64,000 bases of DNA, taken from the NCBI GenBank assembly GCA_014879565.1, contig JACSRW010000026.1, positions 1 to 64,000 on the forward strand, given 5' to 3'. A program made the position numbers and the translations under genes. Shown in pieces: positions 5,276 through 55,052 of the stretch. The DNA comes from Chitinophagaceae bacterium (GTDB lineage: Bacteria > Bacteroidota > Bacteroidia > Chitinophagales > Chitinophagaceae). Every line of letters begins with the position of its first letter. Position 1 is the first letter of the stretch. Below the pieces are notes generated by a model that had not been told where the DNA came from, made no database searches, and saw only the letters and a list, made by a program, of their open reading frames with translations.

Positions 5276-5310
5276 GCCTTTACTGATTATTGATTACTCA
5301 TTACTCATTA
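5276..5310 (-). repeat. 7-bp stutter starting at the tnaA stop codon
   Basis: On the minus strand five 7-bp units follow in phase from the TAA stop: TAATGAG twice, then TAATCAA, TAATCAG and TAAAGGC. Because 7 is not a multiple of 3, the TAA falls in every reading frame. Part of the family of stop-anchored spacers seen across the window. Confidence 0.8.
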
Positions 5311-6684
5311 CACATCGACAGGTTTAAGTTTGGCGGTAAAATGTCTCAGTAATGGGGTTTCTTCCGTTATGATCATTCCCTTCAGTTCATTCCGTTTGTT
5401 GAATACTTCAATGATCACTTCTGCCACATAATCAATATGGCTTTGGGTGTACACCCGTCGCGGAATTGCCAGTCGTACCAGTTCAAGAGTGGCCGGAACC
5501 AGTTTACCGGCGGTATCATATTTACCAAACATAAGCGACCCGATTTCCACGGCTCTGATGCCGCCTGCTTCATAGAGTGCACACACGAGGGATTGTCCCG
5601 GGTATTGGTAAACGGGAATATGCGGCAGAAATTCCCTGGCATCCAGGTACACTGCATGGCCACCGGCTGGCTGCATGACGGGAACGCCGGCCTCCACCAG
5701 TTTCTGGGTCAGGTATTCAATACTGCGGATCCGGTACTGCAGATAGTGCTCATCCATGACTTCCTGTAAGCCGATGGCAATCGCTTCCAGGTCACGGCCG
5801 GCCAGTCCTCCGTAGGTCGTAAAGCCCTCGGTTATGATCAGCAGGTTCCGGCAGCTAACCGCCAGTTCCGGGTTTTTCATTGCGAGGAATCCGCCAATAT
5901 TGGCAAATGCGTCTTTCTTGGCACTCATGGTGCATCCGTCGGCATAAGAAAACATCTCACGGGCAATCTCCGGCACCGGCTTGCCGGCATAACCATCTTC
6001 CCGGAGTTTGATAAACCAGGCATTTTCAGCAAAACGGCAGGCATCTATGTATAACGGGATGCCATATTCATCACAAACTTTCCGGGTATCGCGGATATTC
6101 TGCATGCTCACCGGTTGTCCGCCTCCGGAATTGTTCGTGATAGTGAGCATAATCAGCGGTATACTTGAAGCCCCTTTTTCCTCAATGGTTTTACGCAGCA
6201 GGGAAATGTCCATATTTCCCTTAAAGGGCGCGGGAATGGAAGGATGTTTGCCTTCCTCACATACACAGTCTATGGCTTCTGCGCCGGAGAATTCAATATT
6301 GGCCCGGGTAGTGTCAAAAAAGGTATTACTGATAAAATTTTTTCCTTTCCCTCCCAGGATGGTAAAAAGAATTTTCTCCGCCGCCCGGCCCTGGTGGGTG
6401 GGTATGATAAATGGCATGGCGGTAATACTCCGGACCGAATCTTCAAATTTGAAGAAACTGTTGCTGCCGGCATAGGATTCATCACCGAGCATAATACCTG
6501 CCCATTGGTTACTGCTCATGGCGCTGGTACCGCTGTCGGTGAGCAGGTCAATCAGGATATCACTGGCTTTGATGCGAAAGGAATTATAATCAGCTTTCCG
6601 GAGGATCTCCGTGCGTTCTTCCCGGGTGGTAAAAAAGATGGGCTCCACCGATTTTATACGGAAGGGTTCTATGATTGTTTTCAT
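5308..6684 (-). CDS. tnaA: Tryptophanase
   Basis: A 458-aa PLP lyase converting tryptophan to indole, pyruvate and ammonia. It aligns along its length with E. coli TnaA. Landmarks are IIPTHQGRAAE, the TITNNSGGGQPVSM segment, cofactor-binding DACRFAENAWF, the PLP lysine in SAKKDAFANIGG, and the tryptophanase-specific loop GIRAVEIGS (TPL has MERG there). The C-terminus LLRHFTAKLKPV matches TnaA LRHFTAKLKEV. It is a paralogue of the downstream tpl. The ATG at 6684 lies 12 nt after a GC-rich hairpin (6697-6711), and a leader of about 120 nt with a small Trp-containing ORF precedes it, so attenuation or RBS control is plausible. Confidence 0.93.
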   Translation of the reverse strand: MKTIIEPFRIKSVEPIFFTTREERTEILRKADYNSFRIKASDILIDLLTDSGTSAMSSNQWAGIMLGDESYAGSNSFFKFEDSVRSITAMPFIIPTHQGRAAEKILFTILGGKGKNFISNTFFDTTRANIEFSGAEAIDCVCEEGKHPSIPAPFKGNMDISLLRKTIEEKGASSIPLIMLTITNNSGGGQPVSMQNIRDTRKVCDEYGIPLYIDACRFAENAWFIKLREDGYAGKPVPEIAREMFSYADGCTMSAKKDAFANIGGFLAMKNPELAVSCRNLLIITEGFTTYGGLAGRDLEAIAIGLQEVMDEHYLQYRIRSIEYLTQKLVEAGVPVMQPAGGHAVYLDAREFLPHIPVYQYPGQSLVCALYEAGGIRAVEIGSLMFGKYDTAGKLVPATLELVRLAIPRRVYTQSHIDYVAEVIIEVFNKRNELKGMIITEETPLLRHFTAKLKPVDV

Positions 6685-6696
6685 GCAAGCTTTTTG

Positions 6697-6711
6697 GCAG
6701 CCGGGGGCTGC
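6697..6711 (-). promoter_or_regulatory. Hairpin next to the tnaA ribosome-binding region
   Basis: GCAGCC/GGCTGC form a 6-bp GC-rich stem with a 3-nt loop, ending 12 nt before the tnaA ATG on the minus strand. No U-run follows, so it is not a terminator. It could occlude ribosome access (inference). Confidence 0.5.
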
Positions 6712-6739
6712 GATGAATTAATAAAATAAAGAAGTCAGG

Positions 6740-6752
6740 GAGCGGATCGCTC
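6740..6752 (-). promoter_or_regulatory. Small hairpin overlapping the leader ORF stop codon
   Basis: GAGCG-ATC-CGCTC, whose first bases are the GA of the leader ORF stop TGA. A pyrimidine- and U-rich stretch follows (CTTCTTTATTTTATT). A ribosome held at the stop codon would cover this stem, which could couple translation of the leader to downstream transcription. Confidence 0.45.
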
Positions 6753-6795
6753 AGGTAGGCTTGCGGATGATATTTTTCCAGAGGAGAGGAGACAT
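6751..6795 (-). CDS. Candidate 14-codon leader peptide of the tnaA-tpl operon
   Basis: Minus-strand ORF MSPLLWKNIIRKPT with one tryptophan (W6) and a proline near its end, closing with TGA. It begins 12 nt after the -7 box at 6808-6815, only a few bases from the expected transcription start, and ends about 66 nt before tnaA. E. coli TnaC is also a short leader peptide with an essential Trp and a terminal Pro next to a stop codon. The sequences are not alignable beyond that. Too short for statistical support, so coding is inferred from position and content. Confidence 0.4.
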   Translation of the reverse strand: MSPLLWKNIIRKPT

Positions 6796-6807
6796 AAAAA
6801 ACCTGCT

Positions 6808-6815
6808 CAAAACTA
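6808..6815 (-). promoter_or_regulatory. -7 box TAGTTTTG of the tnaA operon
   Basis: CAAAACTA on the plus strand reads TAGTTTTG on the minus strand, an exact TAnnTTTG. It predicts a start near 6801 and a tnaA leader of about 117 nt. CCTGC and GCAGG flank the box as an inverted repeat. Confidence 0.5.
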
Positions 6816-6847
6816 AGCGGGGCAGGCGGGTTCCATTATGATTTCGG

Positions 6848-7297
6848 TCAGGCGCCGAACTGTTTCAGGTGGTGGTCAATATGTTTCCAGGCCGATTTAC
6901 TCCATTGCTCTTTGGTCATTCTGCCAAAAACGGGATGAATTTCTGTTTTTACAGCCTGTTCGGAGAACTGGCTGATAAGGCCCAGCAATTTGTTTTTTTC
7001 CGTTTCAAAATCTTTTACGCTGCCGGTCATGATATAGGATTGATCCGTAGGCAGTCCCTTTTTCCAGGGTTTTTCATCCCAGAGTGTCTTTTTAAAAAAC
7101 GGCATGATCAGGTTAAAGAAAAAATTACCTTTTATCTGCCGGGTGCCATAAGCCACTTCAAAGGGCAACTGCAGGTGAGCGAGCATCTGGGCCACATCCA
7201 TTTTACCCCACAAACGGGCAGACTGGGGACTAAGCCGGTTAATCCGGTCAAATATTTCCTGTTTAACGGCCGGGTTGAAGAGGTCTTTGATTTCCAT
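6848..7297 (-). CDS. DUF1569 / DinB-like protein
   Basis: A 149-aa protein starting at the ATG at 7297 (MEIKDLFNP). The longer frame back to 7381 runs through a low-complexity 7-bp stutter and is rejected. The MDVAQMLAHLQLPFEVAYG helix and the closing WSKSAWKHIDHHLKQFG are typical of DUF1569 members, which have the four-helix DinB/YfiT fold with histidines for a metal ion (H43-like AHLQ; HIDHH at the end). Function unknown; relatives are stress-associated or thiol transferases. It lies between hypE and tnaA on the same strand, with a stutter spacer upstream and the tnaA promoter downstream, so it is probably unrelated to either. Confidence 0.75.
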   Translation of the reverse strand: MEIKDLFNPAVKQEIFDRINRLSPQSARLWGKMDVAQMLAHLQLPFEVAYGTRQIKGNFFFNLIMPFFKKTLWDEKPWKKGLPTDQSYIMTGSVKDFETEKNKLLGLISQFSEQAVKTEIHPVFGRMTKEQWSKSAWKHIDHHLKQFGA

Positions 7298-7331
7298 GTT
7301 GGTTGATTGTGGCGGAAAGGTCGGGAAAAAT

Positions 7332-7363
7332 TGGAAAATGGAAAGTGGGGAGTGGAAAGTGGT
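7332..7363 (-). repeat. 7-bp stutter upstream of the DUF1569 gene
   Basis: Minus-strand units CACTTTC, CACTCCC, CACTTTC, CATTTTC and CAATTTT, period 7. It lies in the 102-bp spacer after hypE. Confidence 0.7.
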
Positions 7364-7380
7364 CGTCATTTTGTTGATCA

Positions 7381-7402
7381 ATCCTAACCCCTCAACCTCT
7401 CA
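7381..7402 (-). repeat. 8-bp stutter seeded by the hypE stop codon
   Basis: From the TGA stop the minus strand reads TGAGAGGT, TGAGGGGT, TAGGAT. The stop motif is repeated with period 8, which puts stop codons in successive frames. Confidence 0.7.
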
Positions 7403-8437
7403 ACATATCCTCGGCAACTGTTCCCCCGTAAGATAATTCACCACCCGTCGGCCGCCAATACGGCTTTGCAGTAAAACTTTACCGGGATGTTCCGTTTTTA
7501 CTTCCCCGATAAGAGCTGCCTGTTTTCCGTTTTCATCTTCCCGGAGGGCGGTGAGGAAAGCATCGGCAATATCCGCTTTAACCACAGCGAGAAACAATCC
7601 TTCATTGGCTACATACAGCGGATCAAGGCCGAGCATTTCGCAGGCGCCTTCCACCTGTTCGTCAAAGGGGATATGTTTTTGTTCCAATTCATAACCCAGT
7701 TGGGTGAGTTCCGCAATTTCATTCAGTACGGATGCGATACCACCCCGGGTCGGATCGCGCAGAAAACGAATGCCTTCCCCGAACCGGTCAAGTAATTTCA
7801 TCACTGTATGATTCAGATTGATGGTATCACTCTGTATCGTGGTTTCAAATTCCAGTCCTTTACGTACGCTCATAATCGCTATACCATGTGTGGCTACGGG
7901 TCCGCTGATCAGAATCCGGTCACCCGCTTCAATCCGGCTGTGATGTATAGCGGCTTTCGGATGTACCTGGCCAACACCGGAGGTATTGATGAAAATTTTA
8001 TCGCCCTTTCCTTTTTCCACCACTTTGGTATCGCCGGTTACGATCTTGACTCCGGCTCTTTCAGCCGCGTTTTTGATACTGACCAGGATTTCCCAGAATT
8101 CGGTCATCGGCAGCCCTTCCTCAATAATAAAACCGAGGGATAAATACCGGGGTATGGCCCCGCACATGGCCAGGTCATTAACGGTGCCATTCACGGCAAG
8201 TTCACCGATATTTCCGCCCGGGAAAAACGCGGGCGTGATCACATAACTGTCGGTACTGAATGCCAGTTTACCGGGTAATTCAAAACTGGCTCCGTCGTGT
8301 TGCTGATCCAGCAGATCATTTTTAAACAAATCAAATACCCCGCTCTGCAACAGCTTGTGCGTAAGTAATCCGCCACTCCCGTGTCCGAGGGTAATTACAT
8401 CAAAGTCAAGCCGGGGCATGGGGCAGGAGAGTTGCAT
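7400..8437 (-). CDS. hypE: Hydrogenase maturation protein HypE
   Basis: A 345-aa member of the PurM/SelD-like ATPase family. HypE dehydrates the thiocarboxamide that HypF forms on its C-terminal cysteine, giving the CN ligand of the [NiFe] site. N-terminal ITLGHGSGG, DPTRGG in the middle and the invariant C-terminal PRIC ending in the acceptor cysteine are all present. Last gene of the minus-strand hyp unit, 9 bp after the TonB receptor gene, so clearly co-transcribed. A second in-frame ATG at 8419 is possible; family members start close to the ITLAHG motif, so either is compatible. Confidence 0.95.
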   Translation of the reverse strand: MQLSCPMPRLDFDVITLGHGSGGLLTHKLLQSGVFDLFKNDLLDQQHDGASFELPGKLAFSTDSYVITPAFFPGGNIGELAVNGTVNDLAMCGAIPRYLSLGFIIEEGLPMTEFWEILVSIKNAAERAGVKIVTGDTKVVEKGKGDKIFINTSGVGQVHPKAAIHHSRIEAGDRILISGPVATHGIAIMSVRKGLEFETTIQSDTINLNHTVMKLLDRFGEGIRFLRDPTRGGIASVLNEIAELTQLGYELEQKHIPFDEQVEGACEMLGLDPLYVANEGLFLAVVKADIADAFLTALREDENGKQAALIGEVKTEHPGKVLLQSRIGGRRVVNYLTGEQLPRIC

Positions 8438-8446
8438 GATAGTGGT

Positions 8447-10702
8447 TTAAAAGAAAAGAGTAAAACTAAGCCGGGCGAAAAACGGGGTGCCGGGGGTAAA
8501 ATGGATTTCTGAAACAGGCGCTGATTCATTGAACAAACGACTTTCTGTATCAAACTGCGTTTCCTTCCACCGGGCATCAAACAGGTTCTGTATACTGAGA
8601 CCGGCCTCCCATTTTTTGCGGCTAAAATTCAGCGCCGCATCCGCGACAAAATATCCTTTTGCGAGTACTGAATTATCCTCGTTGGCCGGCCGGTCAGCCA
8701 TATACCGGTAACGAATACTGCCATTCCATCCGGACTCACGGCGCCAGGTGAAGCCGCCTACACTGGTAAACCGGGGGGCAAGGGGTAACCTGTTTTCCGC
8801 TTTAGGTACATCAAGGGCACGGGGATCAGCGATACTGAAATCCATATCTGCATAAAGGTTCTTCAGCAATTCGTACCGGAGGGAAAGATCCCAACCGAGC
8901 CGGCGGGTGCGGCCGCCCGGTTCCACTACGCCTTCATCTCCTACATATACAAACTCCTGTTTCATCCACATATACCAGAACGCAGTTTGCAGCATGGCTT
9001 TTTTACCCAGTTTAACAATGGCGCCGAGATCACTGCCCCAGGCAGGGGTCACCACTTCTTTGCCATCCTGCTGTACGGCAACACGGGTGTCGTTGCTGTG
9101 AAAGCCCTGGCCATTCTGCCAGTATAACTGTACCTGGTCATTGATCCGGTAATTCAGGTTCAGTTTGGGACTGATTATGGCAGACTGTGAACGACCTGTG
9201 ACACTGGTCAGCAGGTCTTCATACCGGTTGCTGAAATGATCTGCCCGTATACCGAGACCCAGGTCCACTTTATTGCTGAGAAATATTTTTTCCTGCAGAA
9301 AAATTCCGGCGTTCAGTTCCCGGATATTGCCCAGGGCAATCCGGCTGCTGGTGATGGTCCGGTTAACTGTGCGGGAGAGTTCATTGTTATGAACGGCATC
9401 ATACCGGAAACCGGCCCCCGTAATAAAACGGCTTCTTTTCCCGAAAAGTGAATGGTCCTGCTGATAACTCAGGGTATAACCCAGGATATCTCTTTTTTCC
9501 TTTTGCCGGATCTGGTCGCCGTTTACGGGATCTTCCTTGAAAAAGGTAAAGTTGGAATACAACTCAAATTCGTAGCGGGAGTAGTATAACTGGTTGCGTA
9601 ATACGGCCCCGTTGGTGAGATTATGTAAAAATTCAGCGCTGGCATTATACCTGGCGGTATTGCCTCCTTCCTTATCATCAATCGCGCCAAAGAATCCGAT
9701 ACTGCCATCTTCAACCGCCCGGTCTGGTATCTGACCACTGGCATTCCACTTACTTTTAAGGGCACTGACCAGGGCAGTCAGGGAACTGTTTTTTCCGGTG
9801 CTGCCATGGTATTTAATCATCCCGTTCAGGCGGCTGAAATCCTGCGGACTGTCAAAGTAACCCTGCGTAAATGACCCTTCCCCGGCAATATACAGACTCT
9901 GGTTTTTCTCCCGGGCACCTGCTGAAAGCAGGTTGATGCCCGTGATCGCCCGCAGCGTATTATATTGTCCGCCTTCCAGTTTGGCAAAATTATGCTGAAG
10001 ATGATTTTTAGTCCGGAATGAAACATAACCGGCTGTGGCGAGATTGCCTTTGTCGGCATCAAAGGGCCCCTTACTGAAATTTACTTTTTCAATCAGTTCG
10101 GGAATGACGAAATGAAGATCGGCATAACCCTGTCCGTGGGCATGACTCACCATATTTACCGGCAATCCGTCAACCGAGAGATGGATATCTGTTCCATGAT
10201 CCAGGTCAAAACCGCGCAGAAAAATCTGCTCCGCCTTGCCCCCGCCGGCGTGCTGCCCGATAAAAAGCCCGGGTACCATCCGGAGTACTTCCTGTGAGTT
10301 GACGATAGGACGAAGATGGATATCCAGATCACTGATGGTTTTAAAAACACCGGTTTTGGCAGAGGCTCTGACCAAAACATCGTTCAGGGTGGTGACACGG
10401 GTGCGGAGATACAGCGTGCCAGCCATCCATTCGGTTTCAGTGAGTTCCCTGGTTTCAAATCCCACTGCTGTAATCAGCAGTTTTTTTATACCGGCTGGCA
10501 GTTGTTTCAGGGAGACAAACCCGTTTTCATCAGAGATTTCCATAAAACTGAAATCAGAACTATAAACAGTTGCATCCGTAACAGGGGTTTTCCCGGTTTC
10601 GCTGAGCAGGGTAAGGCCAGCCGGTTTGCCCTGGCCGGCAACAGCCAGGCTGAAAGTCATCCATAAAGTAAGCAGCCAATTTTTTTTCATGGTTTGCGGC
10701 AT
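8447..10702 (-). CDS. TonB-dependent outer-membrane receptor embedded in the hyp operon
   Basis: A 751-aa protein with a signal peptide (MKKNWLLTLWMTFSLAVAGQ; an ATG at 10690 is an alternative start), a carboxypeptidase-regulatory-like domain (about 30-105), a plug domain (about 120-240) and a 22-strand barrel ending in an aromatic residue (SFTLFF). The plug has an unusual His cluster, SHAHGQGYADLHF, preceded by DLDHGTD, which suggests metal-chelate contact. It sits between hypD (23 bp upstream) and hypE (9 bp downstream), so its product is made together with the nickel-hydrogenase maturation proteins. The best hypothesis is uptake of nickel or a nickel chelate. The substrate is not known from sequence, and heme, zinc and cobalt remain possible. 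Confidence 0.9.
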   Translation of the reverse strand: MPQTMKKNWLLTLWMTFSLAVAGQGKPAGLTLLSETGKTPVTDATVYSSDFSFMEISDENGFVSLKQLPAGIKKLLITAVGFETRELTETEWMAGTLYLRTRVTTLNDVLVRASAKTGVFKTISDLDIHLRPIVNSQEVLRMVPGLFIGQHAGGGKAEQIFLRGFDLDHGTDIHLSVDGLPVNMVSHAHGQGYADLHFVIPELIEKVNFSKGPFDADKGNLATAGYVSFRTKNHLQHNFAKLEGGQYNTLRAITGINLLSAGAREKNQSLYIAGEGSFTQGYFDSPQDFSRLNGMIKYHGSTGKNSSLTALVSALKSKWNASGQIPDRAVEDGSIGFFGAIDDKEGGNTARYNASAEFLHNLTNGAVLRNQLYYSRYEFELYSNFTFFKEDPVNGDQIRQKEKRDILGYTLSYQQDHSLFGKRSRFITGAGFRYDAVHNNELSRTVNRTITSSRIALGNIRELNAGIFLQEKIFLSNKVDLGLGIRADHFSNRYEDLLTSVTGRSQSAIISPKLNLNYRINDQVQLYWQNGQGFHSNDTRVAVQQDGKEVVTPAWGSDLGAIVKLGKKAMLQTAFWYMWMKQEFVYVGDEGVVEPGGRTRRLGWDLSLRYELLKNLYADMDFSIADPRALDVPKAENRLPLAPRFTSVGGFTWRRESGWNGSIRYRYMADRPANEDNSVLAKGYFVADAALNFSRKKWEAGLSIQNLFDARWKETQFDTESRLFNESAPVSEIHFTPGTPFFARLSFTLFF

Positions 10703-10725
10703 GATATATTAAATATTTTTATGCG

Positions 10726-11817
10726 TTAAACCGTGCCGGACGAATAATGATAATAGGCGGCACAGGCTCCTTCACTGCTCACCATCGGGGCGCCGAGAGG
10801 GTGCTCGGGTTTACACTGGGTGCCAAAATTCGGGCACTCAAAGGGTTTTTTCAAACCTTTCATAATATCTCCGCTGATGCAGGAGGGGTTTTCCCGGGCC
10901 AGGGGGATATCAATCCGGAATTTTACCCGGGCATTATAATTTTTGTACCGGTCATTGACTTCAAATCCGCTCTGGGGAATAGTGCCGATACCTCTCCACA
11001 TCCGGTCGCTTACCGAGAAAACCTGCTCCATGGTTTCTTTGGCCATGCGGTTGCCTTCCCGTTGCACATACCGTGTATATTGGTTCTCCAGTTTGTATTC
11101 TCCCTTTTCCAGTTGCTGTACGGCCATCAGGATACCCTGCAGCAGGTCCACCGGTTCAAAGCCGGTGATCACAACCGGGGTTTTATATTTTTCCACCACG
11201 GGATAATACTCTTCCATGCCCATGATGGTGCAGACATGTCCGGCGGCCAGGAATGCGTCAATCTGGTTTTCGGGGTCGCCCAGGATGGCTTCCATAGCCG
11301 GTGGCACCAGTACATGGGAAGCCAGAATGCTGTAATTGGGAACGTCGCTTTTATCAGCATGTATGATACTGAGAGCATTGGCCGGAGCGGTGGTTTCAAA
11401 CCCCACGGCAAAAAAGACCACTTCCTTATCCGGATTTTCCTGCGCCAGTTTTACGGCTTCTAGCGGAGAATAGAGAATACGGACATCTGCTCCCTCCGCT
11501 TTGGCATCCAGCAGACTTTTTTCGGATCCGGGTACCCGCAGCATATCCCCGAAGGAACAAATAATCACCTGTGGCTGACGGGCCAGAAATACCGCTTCAT
11601 CAATAATACTGACCGGGGTTACACAAACCGGACAACCGGGTCCATGTACCATGGTAATCTGTTCCGGCAGCATTTCCAGAATACCGTTTTTAACCAGGCT
11701 ATGAGTCTGCCCGCCGCAGATCTCCATGATTTTCCAGGGGCGGGTGGTTACCTGGTGAATCTGTTCCAGGTATTGTCTGACGAGTTCAGGATCGCGGTAT
11801 TCGGAGAGGAATTTCAT
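10726..11817 (-). CDS. hypD: Hydrogenase maturation protein HypD
   Basis: A 363-aa protein that with HypC forms the scaffold on which Fe(CN)2CO is assembled. Seen are MEICGGQTH near the N-terminus, GPGCPVCVTP with the conserved cysteines, and the C-terminal [4Fe-4S] region with CISGDIMKG, PFECPNFGTQC and EGACAAYY. Length is normal. It starts 39 bp after the hypC stop, with the spacer filled by a 7-bp stutter that ends at its ATG. Confidence 0.96.
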   Translation of the reverse strand: MKFLSEYRDPELVRQYLEQIHQVTTRPWKIMEICGGQTHSLVKNGILEMLPEQITMVHGPGCPVCVTPVSIIDEAVFLARQPQVIICSFGDMLRVPGSEKSLLDAKAEGADVRILYSPLEAVKLAQENPDKEVVFFAVGFETTAPANALSIIHADKSDVPNYSILASHVLVPPAMEAILGDPENQIDAFLAAGHVCTIMGMEEYYPVVEKYKTPVVITGFEPVDLLQGILMAVQQLEKGEYKLENQYTRYVQREGNRMAKETMEQVFSVSDRMWRGIGTIPQSGFEVNDRYKNYNARVKFRIDIPLARENPSCISGDIMKGLKKPFECPNFGTQCKPEHPLGAPMVSSEGACAAYYHYSSGTV

Positions 11818-11859
11818 GGTGAGTGGTGAATAGTGAGTAGTGGGTGGTGAGAGAGGTCA
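11818..11859 (-). repeat. 7-bp stutter spanning the whole hypC-hypD spacer
   Basis: Six 7-bp units run from the T of the hypC TGA to the base before the hypD ATG: TGACCTC, TCTCACC, ACCCACT, ACTCACT, ATTCACC, ACTCACC. The stop-to-start distance is exactly 42 bp, or six units. Confidence 0.8.
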
Positions 11860-12105: not shown

Positions 12106-12116
12106 AAGCAATAGGT

Positions 12117-14438: not shown

Positions 14439-14455
14439 ATTTACAATGGATGCCC

Positions 14456-29385: not shown

Positions 29386-29406
29386 CGGCTGTTTATCTCA
29401 TTTTTT

Positions 29407-29469
29407 TAAAGTTTGATGTTTGAAGTTTGCTGTTTGGGTTCCCAATCCCAAACTATAACCTCCAAACTA
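29407..29469 (-). repeat. 7-bp stutter with complementary halves in the nuoH-nuoI spacer
   Basis: Read on the minus strand from the nuoH TAG in 7-bp phase: TAGTTTG, GAGGTTA, TAGTTTG, GGATTGG, GAACCCA, AACAGCA, AACTTCA, AACATCA, AACTTTA. The first half (GTTTG words) is complementary to the second (CAAAC words). GTTTGGG and CCCAAAC can form a 7-bp stem with an 8-nt loop. Confidence 0.75.
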
Positions 29470-43538: not shown

Positions 43539-45539
<2,001 letters not shown>

Positions 45540-47097: not shown

Positions 47098-47116
47098 GCG
47101 GTTGTTTTTAGCGGCG

Positions 47117-47124
47117 CAAAGATA
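47117..47124 (-). promoter_or_regulatory. -7 box TATCTTTG of lpxC-fabZ
   Basis: CAAAGATA on plus; exact TAnnTTTG on minus, 20 bp before the ATG at 47097. It gives lpxC-fabZ a promoter separate from the upstream ChaN-like gene. Confidence 0.6.
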
Positions 47125-47159
47125 CGATTATTGCCAGCCCCCGCAATAGCCCCTGGAAA

Positions 47160-48014: not shown

Positions 48015-48049
48015 GCTAACAGGTATGTTTATGCGAAGAGTTGATGTCT

Positions 48050-49099
48050 TCAGGAGCCGGCTTTTTCAGCCATCAGTAACCGGACCAGGGTTTCCAGTTC
48101 CTTGATTTTTTTCTCCAGGTCGGGTAATTTACGGGTAACAGCCTGGCTGCGCAGGGCGGCGGTATAATCAAAGGCCGGGGATCCGGTAACCGCTTTTCCG
48201 GGTTCAATGGATTTGCTAACGCCGCTTTGGGCATTTACTTTAGCGCCGTCACCTAACTGGATATGCCCTACAATACCGGCCTGTCCGCCGATCATGACAC
48301 CCTTACCAATCCGGGTGCTGCCACTGATACCGGCCTGGGCGGCAATAACTGTGCTGGATCCGATCTCCACATTATGCGCTACCTGGATCAGGTTATCCAG
48401 TTTGGCTCCCTTGCGGATAATGGTCGAGCCGATCGTCGCCCGGTCAATCGTTGTATTGGAACCTACCTCCACATCATCCTCAATCACCACATTGCCGATC
48501 TGGGGAACTTTTTTGAAACTGCCGTCAGCCTGCGGGGCAAAACCAAAGCCATCACTGCCGATAATCGTGCCGGCATGGATAATGACATGGTTACCGATCC
48601 TGCAGTCCTGGTAAATTTTTACCCCGGGATGAATCACACAGTTATCACCCACTTCCACATTATCCCCCAGGAATGCATTCGGATAAATTTTGGTATTGTT
48701 TCCCACTTTCACTTTTTCACCGAGATAGGCAAAAGCCCCGATAAAAACCTGTTGCCCGTATGTGGCGCTGGGCGCTATATACGCCGGCTGCTGGATACCG
48801 GCCAGTGACTGTTGTTTGATTTCCTGGTATTTGCTAAGCAGGGTGGCAAAAGCACTGTAGGCATCCGGTACCCGGATCAGGGTGGCCGATACCGGTTGTT
48901 TCAGTTCAAAGCTTTCATTGATAATAATAACAGAGGCAGCGGTACGGTAAAGAAACTCCTCGTATTTGGGATTGGCAAAAAAACTGAGCTGCCCTTCCCG
49001 GGCTTCTTCAATTTTTCCAAAAGAATTTACCGTGACGGAAGCGTCGCCTTCAATCCGTCCGTTTACAAGCAGGGCTATCTGGGCAGCAGGAAATTGCAT
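48050..49099 (-). CDS. lpxD: UDP-3-O-acylglucosamine N-acyltransferase
   Basis: A 349-aa left-handed beta-helix acyltransferase of lipid A synthesis. An N-terminal uridine-binding domain (about 1-100, with [14 protein letters not shown]) precedes hexapeptide repeats (about 110-300) such as [20 protein letters not shown]. The catalytic His region is [32 protein letters not shown], and a C-terminal helical tail ([13 protein letters not shown]) closes it. The ATG at 49099 is preceded directly by an 8-bp stutter. Confidence 0.95.
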
Positions 49100-49107
49100 A
49101 TGGGGTA

Positions 49108-49164
49108 AAGTTGAGAAGTTGAGGGGTTGAGGGGTTGAGAAGTTGATAAGTTGAGGGGTTGCCT
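49108..49164. repeat. 8-bp stutter before lpxD, seven units
   Basis: GTTGA recurs at 49110, 49118, 49126, 49134, 49142 and 49150 with a seventh variant (GTTGC) at 49158, all exactly 8 bp apart. In lpxD orientation the word is CAAC(C/T)(C/T)(C/T)T. It fills the spacer up to 8 bp before the lpxD ATG. Confidence 0.85.
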
Positions 49165-49198
49165 CATCCGCCCGGCACAGGCCACTCTCCGTTCCCTC

Positions 49199-50413
49199 TC
49201 ATCCTGCAAAACAAAAATAGTGCTTTTTCACTGTGTCACTCAGGTTCTGCTGAATCAGGGCATTGTCCACTGTGGAAATATCCCGGATCCGCCCGTCCTT
49301 GAACAGGATCTGTATCCGCTCGTCGGCCGGATTATAGGTGGTATTGCTGGCCACGCCGGTAAAGACAAAATAACCGGCTTCAGCTTCACCGATACCCAAC
49401 CGCTCCCGCACTTCTTTTTTCTTTTGCGCCAGCAGGCCGGGGTCGGGTGCTTCTGCCTGCAATTTTACTTTCAGCAGCTTCCGTTCCACCAAAAAACGGC
49501 AGAGGGCCGCCAGTACCGGGTCGGCGGCCGTACTCCATTGTTTAATAGTGGCCATCACATCATGGTCATCCAGCCGGCAAAACCGGTCGGTATGCGCTTC
49601 CATATCAGTAACGGGTCCGTGTAAACGCAGGAAAAAATCCAGATCGGGGGATACGGCTTTTATTTCTTTTCCCTGGCTGATCAGTTCTTTAGCCCGGCGA
49701 ATGATCCGGATCAGCATCTGTTCGGCGCTGACCACGGTTTTATGGAGATATACCTGCCAGTACATGAGACGGCGGCTGACCAGGAACTTCTCAATTGAAT
49801 AAATAGCTTTTTCCTCCACCATCAGTTGTCCGTCTTTTACCGTCAGCATTTTGATGATCCGGTCGTATCCGATCACCCCTTCGGCTACCCCGGTGAAAAA
49901 ACTGTCCCGGTTCAGGTAGTCCATCCGGTCCACATCAAGCTGTCCCGAAACCAGCTGGTGCAGGAAGGCTTTAGGATGGCGGTTCGTAAAAATGGAGATA
50001 GCCGTTTCCAGTTGTCCGTTCATTTCCCGGTTGAGTTTCTCCATCAGCAGCAGGGAAATTTGTTCATGGTGCACTCCCGGTATCAGTTCCTGTTCCAGGG
50101 CATGGGAAAAAGGACCATGACCTGCATCATGCAGCAGGATGGCGATTTTGGCACCCAGTTCTTCTTCGGGTGTAATGGGCACACCCTTACTCTTCAGTTC
50201 GCCCAGCGCCATACCCATCAGGTGATAAGCGCCAAGAGAATGGTGCAGCCTGGAATGAACAGCCCCCGGGTAAACCAGGTGGGCAAATGCCATCTGGTGA
50301 ATATTCCGGAGCCGCTGATATACCGGGTGGGAAATCACCGATAAAAGCAACGGGTGATCAATGGTAATAAAACCATAGACCGGATCGTTGATGATTTTGC
50401 GGACGGCTGTCAT
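49199..50413 (-). CDS. HD-superfamily phosphohydrolase (COG1078, SAMHD1-like)
   Basis: A 404-aa metal-dependent phosphohydrolase. It starts with the family's NDPVYGFITIDHPLL and VYQRLRNIHQMAFAHLVYPGAVHSRLHHSLGAYHL, followed by the HD motif in LLHDAGHGPFSHALE and DVDRMDYLNRDSFFTGV. Relatives include dNTP triphosphohydrolases; the substrate of this subfamily is often unknown. Own -7 box (50452-50459), divergent from porX. Confidence 0.9.
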   Translation of the reverse strand: MTAVRKIINDPVYGFITIDHPLLLSVISHPVYQRLRNIHQMAFAHLVYPGAVHSRLHHSLGAYHLMGMALGELKSKGVPITPEEELGAKIAILLHDAGHGPFSHALEQELIPGVHHEQISLLLMEKLNREMNGQLETAISIFTNRHPKAFLHQLVSGQLDVDRMDYLNRDSFFTGVAEGVIGYDRIIKMLTVKDGQLMVEEKAIYSIEKFLVSRRLMYWQVYLHKTVVSAEQMLIRIIRRAKELISQGKEIKAVSPDLDFFLRLHGPVTDMEAHTDRFCRLDDHDVMATIKQWSTAADPVLAALCRFLVERKLLKVKLQAEAPDPGLLAQKKKEVRERLGIGEAEAGYFVFTGVASNTTYNPADERIQILFKDGRIRDISTVDNALIQQNLSDTVKKHYFCFAG

Positions 50414-50451
50414 TGTTGCTGTTTTGTTAAAGGCCCCGGAAGGGCCGGCGG

Positions 50452-50459
50452 CAAAAGTA
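50452..50459 (-). promoter_or_regulatory. -7 box TACTTTTG of the HD phosphohydrolase gene
   Basis: CAAAAGTA on plus; exact TAnnTTTG on minus, 38 bp before the ATG. Only 21 bp from the divergent porX box. Confidence 0.55.
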
Positions 50460-50480
50460 CAACCGTCGGCGGTAAAAAGC

Positions 50481-50488
50481 TAAATTTG
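50481..50488 (+). promoter_or_regulatory. -7 box TAAATTTG of porX
   Basis: An exact TAnnTTTG, 34 bp upstream of the porX ATG. Confidence 0.55.
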
Positions 50489-50522
50489 GCAACTGACCGG
50501 CATTATAATTAAAAACCTGTAC

Positions 50523-52079
50523 ATGGCCATTGCGAAAATTATCTGGGTGGACGATGAAATCGAAAGCCTGCAGTCTCAAAAACTTTTCCTGGAAAACAAA
50601 GGGTATGAAGTCGTGACATTTACCAACGGCTTTGATGCGATTGATTATGTAAAGGAAAACCCGGTGGATGTGGTGCTGATGGATGAGAGCATGCCCGGGA
50701 TCACCGGACTGGAAACCCTGGCCAAAATAAAAGAAGTCAGCCAGTCATTACCGGTAGTGCTGATTACCAAAAACGAAACCGAGAACCTGATGGATGATGC
50801 CATTGGTTCCCAGATCAGCGATTACCTGATTAAACCTGTAAATCCGAACCAGGTATTGTTAAGCCTCAAAAAAATTCTGGACAACCGGCGCCTGGTAGCA
50901 GAAAAAACCACCTCTGCTTACCAGCAGCAGTTCCGGCATCTTTTTACCGCGCTCAACAGTAATCCCGACCACAACGAGTGGATGGATATTTACAAAAAAC
51001 TGGTCTATTGGGAACTGGAAATGCAGAAAAGTGGCAGCCCGGAAATGCAGGAAGTGCTGCAAAGCCAGAAAGATGAAGCGAATACCGAATTCTTCAAATT
51101 TGTTTCCCGGAACTATGCCGGTTGGGTATCGCCTAAAGGCAAAGACGGACCCGTGATGAGCCATAATCTCTTCCGGTTTAAAGTACTGCCCCATGCGGAA
51201 AAAGGCGTACCCCTGTTTTTTGTGCTGATCGACAACCTGCGTTTTGACCAGTGGAAAGCAATACAGCCCATTTTTGCCGAGAGTTTCCGGATTCTGGAAG
51301 AAGACAGTTTTTATAGTATCCTGCCTACGGCCACACAATATGCCCGGAATGCCATCTTCTCCGGAATGCTTCCGCTGGAAATTGAGAAGCAGTTTCCCGT
51401 ACAATGGAAAAATGATGATGAGGAAGGCGGGAAGAACCTGCACGAAGAAGAATTCTTCCGGGCCCAGTTGCAAAAGATGGGGCGCGGAGACCTGAAAATA
51501 TCCTATACCAAAGTGCTGAATAACCAGGCAGGGCTGGAGCTGGTCAACTCCATTCATAATCTGCTGAACAACGATATCAATGTGATCGTGTACAACTTCG
51601 TGGATATGCTCAGTCATGCCCGTACAGAAATGGAAGTACTGAAAGAACTGGCCGGGGATGAAATGAGCTACCGGAGTATCACGGCAAGCTGGTTTGAACA
51701 CTCCCCGCTGCACCAGGCGCTTAAAAAAATTGCGGATAAAAAGATCAGGCTGGTGCTGGCCACCGATCATGGCAGTATAAGGGTAAAAACACCCTGTAAA
51801 GTGGTAGGCGATAAACAAACCACCGCCAACCTGCGGTACAAACATGGCCGGAACCTGAACTATGAACCCCGTGATGTACTGGCCTTCCGCGATCCCCGGG
51901 AAGCCGGGCTGCCGGTACCCACCATCAACTCTTCTTTTATTTTCGCCCGGGAAGACGGCTTTCTCTGCTATCCCAATAATTATAATTATTACGTCAACTA
52001 TTACCGGAATACTTTTCAGCACGGGGGCGTGAGCCTGGAGGAGATGATTGTACCGGTGATAAAGATGGAAAGTAAGTAG
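50523..52079 (+). CDS. porX: PorX, response regulator with PglZ domain (T9SS regulator)
   Basis: A 518-aa protein. A CheY-like receiver (1-120) has acidic D10/D11, phospho-acceptor D54 (VVLMDESMP) and the conserved Lys in SDYLIKPV. A linker helix and a PglZ/alkaline-phosphatase-fold domain (about 200-515) with FFVLIDNLRFDQW and VLATDHGSIR metal-site motifs follow. PorX with the sensor PorY controls type IX secretion gene expression, and its PglZ domain hydrolyses oligonucleotides in characterised homologues. No porY is adjacent. A likely T9SS client, the S8 protease, is encoded nearby. The gene is followed directly by a stutter that begins at its stop codon. Confidence 0.95.
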   Translation: MAIAKIIWVDDEIESLQSQKLFLENKGYEVVTFTNGFDAIDYVKENPVDVVLMDESMPGITGLETLAKIKEVSQSLPVVLITKNETENLMDDAIGSQISDYLIKPVNPNQVLLSLKKILDNRRLVAEKTTSAYQQQFRHLFTALNSNPDHNEWMDIYKKLVYWELEMQKSGSPEMQEVLQSQKDEANTEFFKFVSRNYAGWVSPKGKDGPVMSHNLFRFKVLPHAEKGVPLFFVLIDNLRFDQWKAIQPIFAESFRILEEDSFYSILPTATQYARNAIFSGMLPLEIEKQFPVQWKNDDEEGGKNLHEEEFFRAQLQKMGRGDLKISYTKVLNNQAGLELVNSIHNLLNNDINVIVYNFVDMLSHARTEMEVLKELAGDEMSYRSITASWFEHSPLHQALKKIADKKIRLVLATDHGSIRVKTPCKVVGDKQTTANLRYKHGRNLNYEPRDVLAFRDPREAGLPVPTINSSFIFAREDGFLCYPNNYNYYVNYYRNTFQHGGVSLEEMIVPVIKMESK

Positions 52080-52135
52080 GAGACGGGAGAAGGGAGACAG
52101 GAGTCGGGAGTTAGTAGTTGGTAGTCTGGAGGAAC
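52077..52135 (+). repeat. 7-bp stutter starting at the porX stop codon
   Basis: Right after TAG: GAGACGG, GAGAAGG, GAGACAG, GAGTCGG, GAGTTAG, TAGTTGG, TAGTCTG, GAGGAAC; eight units in perfect 7-bp phase with a word that drifts along the tract. The first word is the same as in the tract after the ABC exporter stop codon (55012-55052). Confidence 0.9.
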
Positions 52136-52183
52136 TGTGGAAAACATTTAAACCCGACGCGCAGAGAAGCCCTTGCGATAAAG

Positions 52184-52191
52184 TAAATTTG
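52184..52191 (+). promoter_or_regulatory. -7 box TAAATTTG, nearly leaderless transcript
   Basis: An exact TAnnTTTG ending 4 bp before the ATG at 52196. The transcript should start at or within a few bases of the start codon. Confidence 0.5.
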
Positions 52192-52195
52192 TACC

Positions 52196-52471
52196 ATGAA
52201 ATACAACCAGTCCACGCTCGATAAACTGGAGGCAATCCCCGAACAGGCCGGTTATGTACTGCGCTATGAAAGAGGCAATTTCCAGAGCGGCTATTGTATC
52301 CTGGAACAGAAAAAAGTGGTAGTGCTGAATAAATTCCTTCAGATTGAAGGACGAATCAATACCCTGCTTGACCTGATTCCCCAACTGGAAATTGATCCCG
52401 GCCATCTTTCCGCCGAATCCGCTAAACTTCACGCCGGCATCCTGGCCAAACTTGAAACGGAGGAGAACTGA
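52196..52471 (+). CDS. Small unknown protein
   Basis: A 91-aa soluble protein. The N-terminal half has strand-like segments (AGYVLRYERGNFQSGYCILEQKKVVVLNKFLQIEGRINTL) and the C-terminal half is helical (LDLIPQLEIDPGHL...LHAGILAKLE). No motif I can name. It is probably real: promoter directly upstream, good codon structure, and a stutter beginning at its stop codon as for verified genes. The next gene starts 53 bp on. Confidence 0.65.
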   Translation: MKYNQSTLDKLEAIPEQAGYVLRYERGNFQSGYCILEQKKVVVLNKFLQIEGRINTLLDLIPQLEIDPGHLSAESAKLHAGILAKLETEEN

Positions 52472-52472
52472 A

Positions 52473-52520
52473 TTAACTCCTGACCGGTTAACCTGTTAAC
52501 CCTTTAACTTGTTAACTTTA
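52473..52520 (+). repeat. 8-bp TTAAC stutter after the small protein gene
   Basis: TTAAC at 52488, 52496, 52504 and 52512, exactly 8 bp apart, plus an out-of-phase copy at 52473 just after the stop. It fills the spacer to the GTG start of the metallo-hydrolase. TTAA-containing words give stops in several frames. Confidence 0.75.
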
Positions 52521-52524
52521 CAAT

Positions 52525-53310
52525 GTGACCTGCCCCCCCTTAACGATCACTTTTCTCGGCACCGGCACCAGCAGTGGTGTACCCATGATCGGCTGCGATT
52601 GTGAAGTATGCCGTTCGGAGGATAAAAAAGACAACAGGCTGCGGGCAAGTATCCTGGTACAATCTCCCACAACCACCCTCGTGGTGGATACCGGCCCGGA
52701 TTTCCGATACCAGATGTTACGCCAGCAGGTGAGAAAACTCGACGCAGTGGTTTTTACCCATCCGCACCGCGACCATATGGCCGGGCTGGATGATGTAAGG
52801 GCGTTTAATTTTTTCCAGAAAAAGCATATTGATATTTATGCCGATTCCCTGATGGAAGAAGCGGTACGCCGCGATTTTTATTATGCCTTTGCCGATACAA
52901 AATATCCGGGTATACCAGAACTCAACCTGATCACCATTTCCGATCAGCCCTTTATGGTGGGCGATATCCCGGTTGTACCCGTTAAAGTCTGGCACCTCCG
53001 GATGCCGGTACTGGGATTCCGGTTTGGTCGTTTCACCTATATCACCGATGCCAACCGGATAGAGGAGGAGGAAAAGCTGAAAATCAGGGGCAGCCGGGTA
53101 TTGGTCCTGAATGCCCTGCGCAAACAACAGCATATTTCCCATTTCACGCTCGGAGAAGCAGTGGACATGGCCATGGAGCTGCAGGTGCCGGAAGCCTATT
53201 TTACCCATATGTCGCACCAGATGGGCCTTCACGCCGATATTGAAGCTGAACTGCCCGAACATATCCACCTGGCCTGGGATGGATTACAGCTCAAACTACC
53301 CGGTGAATAA
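52525..53310 (+). CDS. Metallo-beta-lactamase-fold hydrolase (PhnP-like)
   Basis: A 261-aa MBL-fold hydrolase. It starts with LTITFLGTGTSSGVPMIGCDCEVC, whose CxCxxC is seen in the PhnP/lipoyl-related branch. FTHPHRDHMAGLDD is the HxHxDH zinc motif, VWHLRMPVLGFRFGRFTYITDANRI carries further ligands, and FTHMSHQMGLH the last histidine. Likely a phosphodiesterase on small substrates; the substrate is unknown. The start is GTG (52525), as no in-frame ATG lies closer to the domain. Confidence 0.88.
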   Translation: MTCPPLTITFLGTGTSSGVPMIGCDCEVCRSEDKKDNRLRASILVQSPTTTLVVDTGPDFRYQMLRQQVRKLDAVVFTHPHRDHMAGLDDVRAFNFFQKKHIDIYADSLMEEAVRRDFYYAFADTKYPGIPELNLITISDQPFMVGDIPVVPVKVWHLRMPVLGFRFGRFTYITDANRIEEEEKLKIRGSRVLVLNALRKQQHISHFTLGEAVDMAMELQVPEAYFTHMSHQMGLHADIEAELPEHIHLAWDGLQLKLPGE

Positions 53311-53322
53311 AAAAAATTCACG

Positions 53323-53336
53323 CTAACACTTGTTAG
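53323..53336. promoter_or_regulatory. Inverted repeat CTAACACTTGTTAG upstream of the acyl-CoA dehydrogenase
   Basis: CTAACA-CT-TGTTAG, perfect 6-bp arms, about 125 bp before the ATG and just upstream of a -7-like TATCTTG (53354-53360). The size and form suit a TetR-family operator (inference). Confidence 0.5.
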
Positions 53337-53388
53337 TTTGCTTTTATTTCTTTTATCTTGCAGTGCCTTTAACGAATGCCTGCTAAGG

Positions 53389-53430
53389 ATCTCTGTCGAG
53401 ATGCGGTGCCACCCCCCTCAGGAGTGGCAC
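53389..53430 (+). promoter_or_regulatory. Structured 5' leader of the acyl-CoA dehydrogenase gene
   Basis: Two hairpins in the presumed leader: ATCTC-TGTC-GAGAT (53389-53402) and GTGCCAC/GTGGCAC (53406-53412 with 53424-53430). No U-run follows the second, so it is not a terminator. I do not match it to a known riboswitch class. Confidence 0.4.
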
Positions 53431-53461
53431 TGTTAATTAAACCCTGTAACGAAAAGCGCAT

Positions 53462-54601
53462 ATGAATTTCCAGCCTTCCGAACTGACCCTGCAGGTGGCG
53501 CAAACCGCACGCGATTTTGCCCGCCAGCATATTGCCCCGCATGTAATGGAATGGGATGAAAGCCAGGAATTCCCGGTACCGGTTTTCCGGGAAATGGGAA
53601 AACTGGGTCTCATGGGTGTACTTGTTCCGCATGAATACGGCGGCGCCGGTATGGGCTATTATGAATACAAAGCGGTAATTGAAGAAATTGCCAAAGTCTG
53701 CGGTTCTGTGGGACTGAGTCTGGCCGCGCATAATTCCCTTTGCACCGGTCATATCCTTGCTTTTGGTAATGAAGCACAAAAGAAACAATGGCTGCCCGGG
53801 CTGGCTACGGCAGAATGGATCGGGGCCTGGGGGCTTACCGAAGCCAATACCGGCAGTGACGCGGGCAATATGCAATGCACTGCCGTGAAAGAAGGAGATC
53901 ATTGGGTCATCAATGGTACCAAAAACTGGATCACCCATGGCAAAAGCGGAGAAATAGCGGTAGTTATCTGCCGCACCGGAGAACCCCGTACTAAGAACAA
54001 CTCCACGGCCTTTGTGGTGGAAAAAGGTACACCCGGTTTCGGAGCCGGAAAAAAAGAAAACAAACTGGGGATGCGGGCCAGTGAAACCGCGGAAATGGTT
54101 TTCGACAATTGCCGGATCCCGGACAGGAACCGCCTGGGTGAAGTGGGGGATGGTTTTAAACAGGCGATGAAAGTGCTGGACGGGGGAAGGATTTCCATTG
54201 CCTCCCTGGCCCTTGGCATTGCCAAAGGCGCTTATGAAGCAGCGGTAAAATATTCCCAGGAACGATACCAGTTTGATAAACCCATTGCTTCTTTCCAGGG
54301 GGTATCCTTTAAACTGGCCGATATGGCTACGGAAATCGCGGCGGCAGAATTACTAATCCTGCAGGCCTGCGATCTGAAGAACCGCCACCTCCCCATGACC
54401 AAAGAAGCGGCGATGGCAAAATACTATGCCAGCGAAGTGGCGGTAAAAGTGGCAAACGATGCAGTACAGATTTTCGGCGGCTACGGATACACGAAAGATT
54501 TTCCCGTTGAAAAATTCTACCGTGATGCCAAGCTCTGCACTATCGGTGAAGGCACGAGTGAGATTCAGAAGATTGTGATCAGCCGGGAAGCACTGAGGTA
54601 G
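53462..54601 (+). CDS. Acyl-CoA dehydrogenase
   Basis: A 379-aa FAD enzyme introducing the alpha-beta double bond into acyl-CoA. Full-length family member with GLTEANTGSDAGNMQCTA and NGTKNWITHG (FAD/substrate loop), QIFGGYGYTKDFPVEKFYRDAKLCTIGEGTSEIQ with the catalytic glutamate E363, and the usual start ELTLQVAQTARDFARQHIAPH. The position of the base suits the short/branched-chain (butyryl/isovaleryl-like) group, but chain length cannot be fixed. No other beta-oxidation genes are adjacent. Confidence 0.93.
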   Translation: MNFQPSELTLQVAQTARDFARQHIAPHVMEWDESQEFPVPVFREMGKLGLMGVLVPHEYGGAGMGYYEYKAVIEEIAKVCGSVGLSLAAHNSLCTGHILAFGNEAQKKQWLPGLATAEWIGAWGLTEANTGSDAGNMQCTAVKEGDHWVINGTKNWITHGKSGEIAVVICRTGEPRTKNNSTAFVVEKGTPGFGAGKKENKLGMRASETAEMVFDNCRIPDRNRLGEVGDGFKQAMKVLDGGRISIASLALGIAKGAYEAAVKYSQERYQFDKPIASFQGVSFKLADMATEIAAAELLILQACDLKNRHLPMTKEAAMAKYYASEVAVKVANDAVQIFGGYGYTKDFPVEKFYRDAKLCTIGEGTSEIQKIVISREALR

Positions 54602-54675
54602 TTTGCAGTTCGCAGATAGAAGTTAGTAGTCACTTGTATTGGAGAAGAACCAAGTTCCAAGATCCAAGAACCAAT
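54599..54675 (+). repeat. 7-bp stutter from the acyl-CoA dehydrogenase stop into the 100-bp repeat array
   Basis: In perfect 7-bp phase from the TAG: TAGTTTG, CAGTTCG, CAGATAG, AAGTTAG, TAGTCAC, TTGTATT, GGAGAAG, AACCAAG, TTCCAAG, ATCCAAG, AACCAAT. The word changes from NAGTTNG to NNCCAAG without losing phase. Confidence 0.85.
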
Positions 54676-54942
54676 TGTCGGGCTTACGACCCTTTTGAAA
54701 GGAGGCCTTGGTTCTTGTTATTTGGTTCTTGGTTCTTTTTCTCAAAATTCCAAGAGCCAAGATCCAAGAACCAATTGTCGAGCCTGCGACTCTTATGAAA
54801 AGGAGGTCTTGCTTCTTGTTATTTGGTTCTTGGTTCTTTTTCCCAAGTTCCAAGAGCCAAGATCCAAGTACCAATTGTCGAGCCTGCGACTCTTATGAAA
54901 AGGTGGAGTTGGTTCTTGTTATTTGGTTCTTGGTTCTTTTTT
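54651..54942. repeat. Three tandem palindromic repeats, period 100 bp
   Basis: The marker CCAATTGTCG occurs at 54671, 54771 and 54871, exactly 100 bp apart. Each unit has a left arm of CCAAG words, a central small hairpin GTCG-6 nt-CGAC, an AAAGGNGG segment, and a right arm of TTGGTTC/TTGTTAT/TTGGTTC words complementary to the left arm, so each unit can fold into a long imperfect hairpin. The arms are themselves 7-bp stutters. Differences between copies (GTCGGGC...CGACCC against GTCGAGC...CGACTC) look co-varying. No cas genes and no unique spacers. The 448-bp region 54602-55049 lies between convergent genes and contains no supported CDS. Confidence 0.85.
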
Positions 54943-54976
54943 GAAAGAAGGGACTACAAATTGCTATCTCACGACT

Positions 54977-55001
54977 TCACCCTTCGACACGCTCAGGGTG
55001 A
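54977..55001. repeat. Palindromic element TCACCCT-N11-AGGGTGA
   Basis: 7-bp perfect arms with loop TCGACACGCTC. From memory this CCTTCGACNNGCTCAGG-type element occurs in many unrelated bacterial genomes as an interspersed repeat; this cannot be checked here. Confidence 0.6.
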
Positions 55002-55011
55002 CATTCCGTTC

Positions 55012-55052
55012 TTCCCGTCTCCCGCCTCCCGTCTCCCGTCTCCCGCCTCTCA
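55012..55052 (-). repeat. 7-bp stutter starting at the ABC exporter stop codon
   Basis: On the minus strand directly after the TGA: GAGGCGG, GAGACGG, GAGACGG, GAGGCGG, GAGACGG, GAAG. The same word follows the porX stop codon 3 kb away. Confidence 0.9.

Follow-up and report, generated by a model that had tools for sequence, protein, structure and literature searches.

Tandem arrays in the spacers of the window

The window analysed here comprises the first 64,000 nucleotides of contig JACSRW010000026.1 of an uncultured Chitinophagaceae bacterium (assembly GCA_014879565.1), whose genome counts 3,425,919 bases in 44 contigs. Its acyl-CoA dehydrogenase shares 88% identity with that of the closest record in a collection of genome contigs, a Chitinophagaceae metagenome-assembled genome. 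The spacers of this window contain a series of tandem arrays of 7- and 8-nt words, and the genes next to them are, according to Pfam, ordinary metabolic genes. The strongest pattern of the data is the strand polarity of such arrays at gene edges: shortly after a stop codon, the strand reading away from the open reading frame (ORF) is mostly the one richer in G. For HypD, HypC, NuoH, LpxD, the acyl-CoA dehydrogenase and the ABC exporter, Pfam matched the names given in a previous description of the window that was made from its letters alone (the sequence-only reading below). PorX was recognized as a response regulator with a PglZ domain, the tnaA product as a beta-eliminating lyase and the hypE product as an AIR-synthase-type protein.

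All places listed by the sequence-only reading hold repeats of period 7 or 8, with a strength ranging from 2.4 to 6 units. Four of these arrays were strong. On the minus strand, four to five units of the heptamer TAATGAG (5280-5315) begin at the stop codon of the tryptophanase-like gene at 5308-6684. Six units of the octamer GTTGAGRR, word family A, are situated on the plus strand at 49108-49161. The heptamer GGGAGACG, word family B, is found twice: on the plus strand it begins at the porX stop and grades into AGTAGTT (52077-52135, detected as a strong array at 52079-52125), and on the minus strand five units begin at the stop of the ABC exporter (55013-55049).

Four further arrays were moderate. 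Five units of AAAGTGG (7328-7362, plus strand) lie between a start and the hypE stop, and five units of TGGTGAG (11817-11851, plus strand) are placed 7 nt from the hypC stop. The heptamer GTTTGNN (29405-29436, plus strand) is located upstream of the gene after nuoH and has a facing partner of the word AGTTTGG, read directly from the sequence, which begins at the nuoH stop (TAG) on the minus strand (29437-29469); together, these two inverted stretches nearly fill the spacer after nuoH. The fourth is an octamer array, AAGTTAAC / AGGTTAAC, on the minus strand (52483-52518). Two arrays were weak, namely a short octamer array of family A (GTTGAGAG/GTTGAGGG, 2.4 units, 7386-7404, minus strand) at the hypE stop and the heptamer AGTTAGT (54600-54630, plus strand) at the stop of the acyl-CoA dehydrogenase gene, with a score of 9, which is the detector floor.

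In most spacers the phase had been described as starting exactly at the stop codon. On inspection, this holds for tnaA, hypE, porX, the ABC exporter and the right-hand part of the nuoH spacer, and in weaker form for the acyl-CoA dehydrogenase. It does not hold for the array at 11817, which adjoins the hypD start codon, nor for the one at 49108, which lies 8 nt from the lpxD start; the array at 7328 stands between two edges, and the one at 52483 has a stop at a distance of 11 nt and a start at 6 nt.

Periods and abundance of the arrays

Genes were called with our own hexamer script and not taken from annotation; on the first 50 kb of Trichormus plasmid A, this script recovered 34 of 36 annotated stops with zero extra. 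Spacers of at least 24 nt entered the lag counts, in which lags 4-13 were compared with five dinucleotide shuffles. The score floor for arrays was 11 in general, 12 for word sharing and for the alignment of family A units, and 9 for spacers with arrays at both ends. For comparison, 41 congeners (labels G0xx) were used, with samples of four of them (G003, G012, G020 and G023) for spacer statistics, together with 80 loci of other species, whose titles name Chitinophagaceae or Bacteroidetes in almost every case (L066 and L089 are titled as other phyla).

In an early sample of 464 kb of the host genome (245 spacers), at least 16 of 21 matches were reached at lag 7 in 25 cases and at lag 8 in 10, with 0-2 at lags 2-6 and 9-13; the shuffles gave 0.4 at lag 7 and 0.6 at lag 8. 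A later sample of 856,072 bp (25% of the genome, 487 spacers) yielded arrays scoring at least 11 at lag 7 in 39 cases and at lag 8 in 14, while each other lag from 4 to 13 yielded 0-2 and the shuffles averaged 0-0.4. Of the 534 spacers of the 80 other loci, 25 held arrays at lag 7, 7 at lag 8, 8 at lag 9 and 0-2 at the remaining lags. The excess of lags 7 and 8 over dinucleotide-shuffled spacers, which the sequence-only reading had proposed as a check, is present in the 25% sample. The heptamer is thus over-represented compared to other unit lengths and period 8 is enriched as well; periods of 14, 16 and 24 frequently match better than 7 or 8.

Although about 89% of the 464-kb sample is coding, lag 7 arrays were intergenic in 45 cases and coding in 3, and lag 8 arrays in 16 and 5 cases, respectively, showing over-representation in non-coding DNA. 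In the host genome, arrays occupied 15 of the 62 spacers between convergent genes, 31 of the 320 between tandem genes and 5 of the 105 between divergent ones. The congener samples differed in richness, with arrays in 24 of 136 spacers of G023, 9 of 141 of G012, 4 of 103 of G020 and 2 of 135 of G003; arrays are taken to have been gained in G000, G023, G034 and G041. A class of 7- and 8-nt tandem arrays, enriched in spacers, exists in this genome and in its relatives.

An assembly artefact is unlikely, as records titled as isolates carry arrays too (e.g. L085). In G020, a congener with a smaller genome, period-9 arrays were seen in 6 of 103 spacers and period-7 arrays in 4, possibly reflecting missed genes (L171-L180).

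Anchoring and strand polarity at gene edges

Arrays lying more than 60% inside called genes (2 per genome) were dropped from the edge tallies, and those with an absolute skew below 0.3 (10 of 43 in the 80 loci) were left out of the edge and stop-anchoring tallies. Spacers shorter than 40 nt were left out of the anchoring, stop-triplet and polarity-subset counts, and the main polarity recount took spacers of at least 15 nt; this lower limit brought in arrays that are C-rich away from the ORF, chiefly from G012.

Skewed arrays cluster at stop codons. In the host genome, 25 of 34 lay within 10 nt past a stop on the 5' side of their G-rich strand, with 6.9 expected under uniform placement, and in G023 the same was true for 15 of 23 (3.6 expected). 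Only one array in each of these two genomes was situated at most 10 nt from the opposite edge. Among arrays no farther than 25 nt from a stop, read away from the ORF, G exceeded C in 69 and C exceeded G in 10, with two ties (69 of 79). The ratio was 31:3 in the host genome, 18:3 in G023, 18:1 in the 80 loci, 1:3 in G012 and 1:0 in G020. It amounted to 68:8 without spacers below 40 nt, to 47:6 when each word was counted once per genome set, and to 33:3 and 35:5 in convergent and tandem spacers, respectively. At starts the ratio was 21:3. Farther out the polarity was gone, the ratio being 12:8 between 26 and 60 nt and 18:14 at larger distances. Both ends of the convergent spacer C1:117901-118062 follow the rule; since convergent spacers obey it at both ends, the orientation tracks the gene and not the direction of replication.

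The sequence-only reading had pointed out that words containing a stop codon, repeated with a period that is not a multiple of 3, place stops in every frame. A design of this kind, blocking all frames after a gene, agrees with the several words that hold TAA, TAG or TGA and with the real stop, which often lies in the first unit. The counts nevertheless argue against it. Among the words close to stops, stop triplets were present in 15 of 33 of the host genome, 13 of 25 of the four congeners and 8 of 20 of the 80 loci, compared to 16.0, 13.0 and 9.5 after permutation of the letters; words without a stop triplet on either strand showed the same polarity (31:2); and periods of 5, 10 and 11, which are not multiples of 3 either, were nearly absent. 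Such a design is considered extremely unlikely, and the C-poor composition of the words accounts for their stop triplets.

An explanation by G-quadruplex elements, put forward for repeats of Xanthomonas and Nostoc, would fit family B (GGGAGNC), in which several arrays have at least four GGG tracts. However, the polarity is kept in words without GG or CC (35:5), by which the quadruplex is ruled out as common cause of the placement, and an explanation of the arrays as quadruplex elements is very unlikely. Neither stop triplets nor any single word accounts for the direction rule.

The chief rival of strand-dependent growth, the explanation preferred below, is a guard against inbound transcription. 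Read into the ORF, the arrays are C-rich, G-poor and unstructured and could resemble Rho-loading sites that, at the border of the ORF, halt transcription which is antisense or reads through. A single rule would cover both edges in this case, it holds in convergent spacers, where arrays are commonest, and the Rho RNA-binding domain is present. The three single arrays that were folded as RNA were indeed unstructured (z 0.02, -0.12 and -1.23). The guard predicts, however, a skew at array-free ends as well, and this was absent at 507 array-free stop ends, whether or not a terminator-like hairpin was present (strong C-rich sense in 35, strong G-rich sense in 28). Many arrays are moreover just 25-50 nt long, and the deficit of intrinsic terminators at array ends was not robust (p 0.03-0.23 in four settings, ends pooled). 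With these results, a Rho-dependent guard appears unlikely. A strict terminator detector scored 4 of 54 array ends and 57 of 376 others. A replacement of intrinsic terminators by arrays is a trend that is not robust.

Array-free spacers had zero skew after stops and a skew of about 0.2 of the same sense before starts. Because array-free stop ends are unskewed, the strand rule on the stop side is a property of the arrays and not of gene ends. For the sign observed at starts, it may suffice that leaders in general avoid G.

Sharing and spread of the words

The words had been described as locally unique, the spacers sharing design and not sequence. This description has to be revised, as GTTGAGRR is found both at hypE and at 49108, GGGAGACG both at porX and at 55013, and both words recur genome-wide. 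An exact circular word was common to another locus more than 3 kb away in 35 of 60 arrays, with 6.2 expected from permuted letters; in G023, the word recurred elsewhere for 10 of 27 arrays (0.8 permuted). Exact words were common to the host genome and G023 in 14 of 60 cases, and none was common to the host genome and the 80 other loci.

Three consecutive units of GTTGAGRR gave 131 matches in the host genome, 4 in G023, 2 in G026, and a single one in both G005 and G010; the remaining 37 congeners had none. Among the matches listed, those of the host genome group into at least 28-29 sites. Of 42 genomes, the GGGAGNC pattern was present in 10, above all in G000, G023 and G041, TAATGAG in 4 and GTGARTR in 12. 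The reversed pattern, used as control, gave 0 matches for GTTGAGRR and GGGAGNC; it was uninformative for TAATGAG, being a rotation of the same word, and for GTGARTR, overlapping the word, so that genomes with arrays gave matches to it as well.

The flanks of nine family A and twelve family B arrays aligned no better than shuffled ones. A longer transposed element of the MITE or REP type was ruled out for both families, as there is no shared sequence beyond the repeat unit. Seeding of words via single copies was also ruled out, array words not being in excess as singles outside arrays.

Change between relatives

The sequence-only reading had asked for a comparison of unit numbers between strains. 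At one locus, and between congeners, a change was found: the tnaA array of G041 and that of G023 are one 7-nt unit apart in length, and their alignment, including the stretch next to the array, contains a single base change. The gap between the tandem tryptophanase-like genes measured 6-12 nt in five congeners, 101 nt in the host genome, 128 nt in G041 and 141 nt in G023, and all three enlarged gaps carry arrays or array-like stretches at both ends. The step from 6-12 nt to 101-141 nt with arrays supports growth into a small spacer; in this operon, arrays accompany an increase of the gap from about 10 to more than 100 nt. The two genes (3824-5206 and 5308-6684 in the window) are about 44% identical. 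In the tnaA spacer of G023 (L231), a short palindromic insert with a GCCGGC core was observed inside the start-side repeat stretch, which was not seen in G041.

Phase variation or regulation tied to particular genes would agree with the different unit number between tnaA orthologues. Against this, the neighbours of the arrays are ordinary metabolic genes, arrays occur more after than before genes, and the orthologous genes mostly lack arrays, making such a role hardly credible. After the acyl-CoA dehydrogenase gene, arrays were found within 170 nt in 2 of 30 loci, those of the host genome and G023. Downstream of porX (30 loci with the gene, from 42 genomes), most of the loci printed have a variable stretch from the stop to a TGTGGA(A/T)AA motif, and arrays occupy this stretch in some genomes. 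The motif itself, at 52133-52142 in the window, follows the porX stop in many congeners (L122-L150) and resembles a DnaA box.

Facing pairs, folding and element D

Spacers with arrays at both ends carried the same word in inverted orientation in 9 of 25 cases, compared to about 1.7 after permutation. This could indicate that facing arrays, together with a hairpin repeat named element D, form stem-loops which end or protect transcripts. Element D is located at 54645-54945 on the plus strand, a stretch that consists mainly of this element and is distinct from the simple heptamer arrays. It is built of three tandem hairpin units of about 100 bp (period 100, 90% matches), whose arms consist of the heptamers CCAAGAN / TTGGNTC and which carry T tails; the units fold strongly (z -5.3, -3.8 and -3.95). 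For the arrays as a class, a hairpin or terminator function is nonetheless improbable, given that most array spacers are one-ended, the single arrays are unfolded and 16 of the 25 two-ended spacers are unpaired by the criterion used, which misses one visibly similar pair. The inverted relation of spacer ends was strong in convergent spacers of all five genomes, and inspection of the top pairs showed that these are largely ordinary terminator hairpins.

Element D had 46 matches in the host genome and one or two short ones in four of the 41 congeners, and it gives the impression of a separate, small dispersed repeat of recent origin. Further sites in the host genome were observed at C10:21531-21924, C25:7428-7801, C14:14761-15044 and C3:17985-18169.

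Interpretation of the arrays

The explanation we favour, with somewhat better than even confidence, is that these are intergenic heptamer and octamer tandem arrays which change in length unit by unit and, at gene ends, grow in a strand-dependent way. The DNA flanking an ORF is under little constraint, and arrays there would gain and lose complete units of 7 or 8 nt. On the 3' side, persistence or growth would be expected mainly of arrays whose G-rich strand, directly after the stop codon, is the non-template one. Ribosomes would have left the RNA at this point, and a non-template strand with ribosome-free RNA could permit hybrids; from this we infer transcription-coupled instability of the R-loop type as the likeliest cause of the strand dependence. 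On the 5' side, the same sign would result from a tendency of leaders in general to be poor in G. Slippage-like growth by whole units is supported at one locus, tnaA, and by the multi-unit periodicities.

Several observations weigh against this explanation. Anchoring on the start side is weak (7 of 20 in the host genome with 3.5 expected, 2 of 9 in G023 with 2.0 expected), and R-loops, the step that we infer, do not explain the sign at starts. Congener G012, whose PorX is the most similar among the congeners, breaks the strand rule at stops (1:3 with spacers of at least 15 nt, 0:5 in an earlier tally). On the cyanobacterial Trichormus plasmid A (350 kb), the arrays (12) are too few to bear out the rule, with a ratio of 3:2 at stops and 2:0 at starts. 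Local slippage by itself would not be expected to bring a single word to 28 or more sites without shared flanks and without an excess of single copies, and the genome-wide spread of the words has no explanation in a slippage reading. Family A units, furthermore, show a fixed core: positions 1-4 were invariant in 51 units at nine loci, although the arrays were picked by core similarity, which favours apparent invariance. At position 7, A and G were about equally frequent, and apart from two units, both this position and position 8 held a purine.

These last points could be accommodated if the words were written in trans, by a process that copies a small set of species-specific 7-8-nt words to ORF borders in fixed orientation, with a constant core and certain positions left to vary. 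Such writing would explain an octamer at 28 or more unlinked sites with unrelated flanks, no single-copy excess and near absence in congeners. No enzyme for such writing was found; reverse transcriptases of the RVT_1 family occur in 6 of 42 genomes, unrelated to array richness. Writing in trans is regarded as decidedly improbable.

The occurrence of the rule in words without stops and without G runs removes two reasons that have been proposed for repeats of this kind; what is left is a process at gene ends that depends on the strand. With words that are specific to a species, and with near relatives that have or lack arrays, the birth, spread and length change of arrays become testable.

Comparison with known repeat systems

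Long simple sequence repeats were reportedly surveyed by Mrazek in 2007, heptamers being the commonest, and heptanucleotide repeats of Calothrix are said to have been described by Mazel in 1990. The arrays of the window share with these the dominance of 7-nt units, and polymerase slippage was proposed there; a strand rule bound to gene edges is not described in the material known to us from this work.

A literature search of partial coverage returned no paper on many-word arrays or on Chitinophagaceae arrays among the matches listed. The sequence-only reading knew of no named element of this kind. Nevertheless, similar heptamer arrays have been published, in Xanthomonas and Nostoc (PMC4692102) and in Beggiatoaceae, cyanobacteria and five Bacteroidetes (PMC4679880).

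In the latter, MacGregor (2015) described intergenic arrays of TAACTGA (PMC4679880). These resemble the present arrays in being intergenic heptamers, in their occurrence in Bacteroidetes and in the 7-nt indels found there between close strains. They consist of one word and lie mostly just upstream of starts in the main genome, whereas many words occur here, mostly at stops. In the window and its relatives the words differ from TAACTGA and the placement is mainly at stops.

The closest resemblance is to the GGGAATC and GGGGA(C/T)T heptamers described by Rehm et al. (2015) in two Xanthomonas and one Nostoc, for which a like placement rule and facing pairs were reported (PMC4692102). Those repeats lie within 50 bp of a stop on the coding strand or upstream of a start on the non-coding strand, and 83% were retained between two Xanthomonas species (PMC4692102). 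The present arrays have in common with them the 7-nt units, the mostly intergenic location, the placement by edge and strand, the rarity between divergent ORFs, the inverted pairs and the neighbourhood of all kinds of genes. Placement at stops on the coding strand and at starts on the non-coding strand is found here too, with the exception of G012. In contrast, the published repeats have one G-rich quadruplex-forming word type per group, while many unrelated words with periods of 7 and 8 occur here, the rule covers words incapable of forming quadruplexes, and many orthologous spacers are without arrays. The published repeats are further marked by a run of three or more G in the unit and a preference for four units; here, 60 of 78 near-stop arrays have neither GGG nor CCC in their word. 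The placement rule known for single G-rich heptamers thus extends to many unrelated words in Chitinophagaceae.

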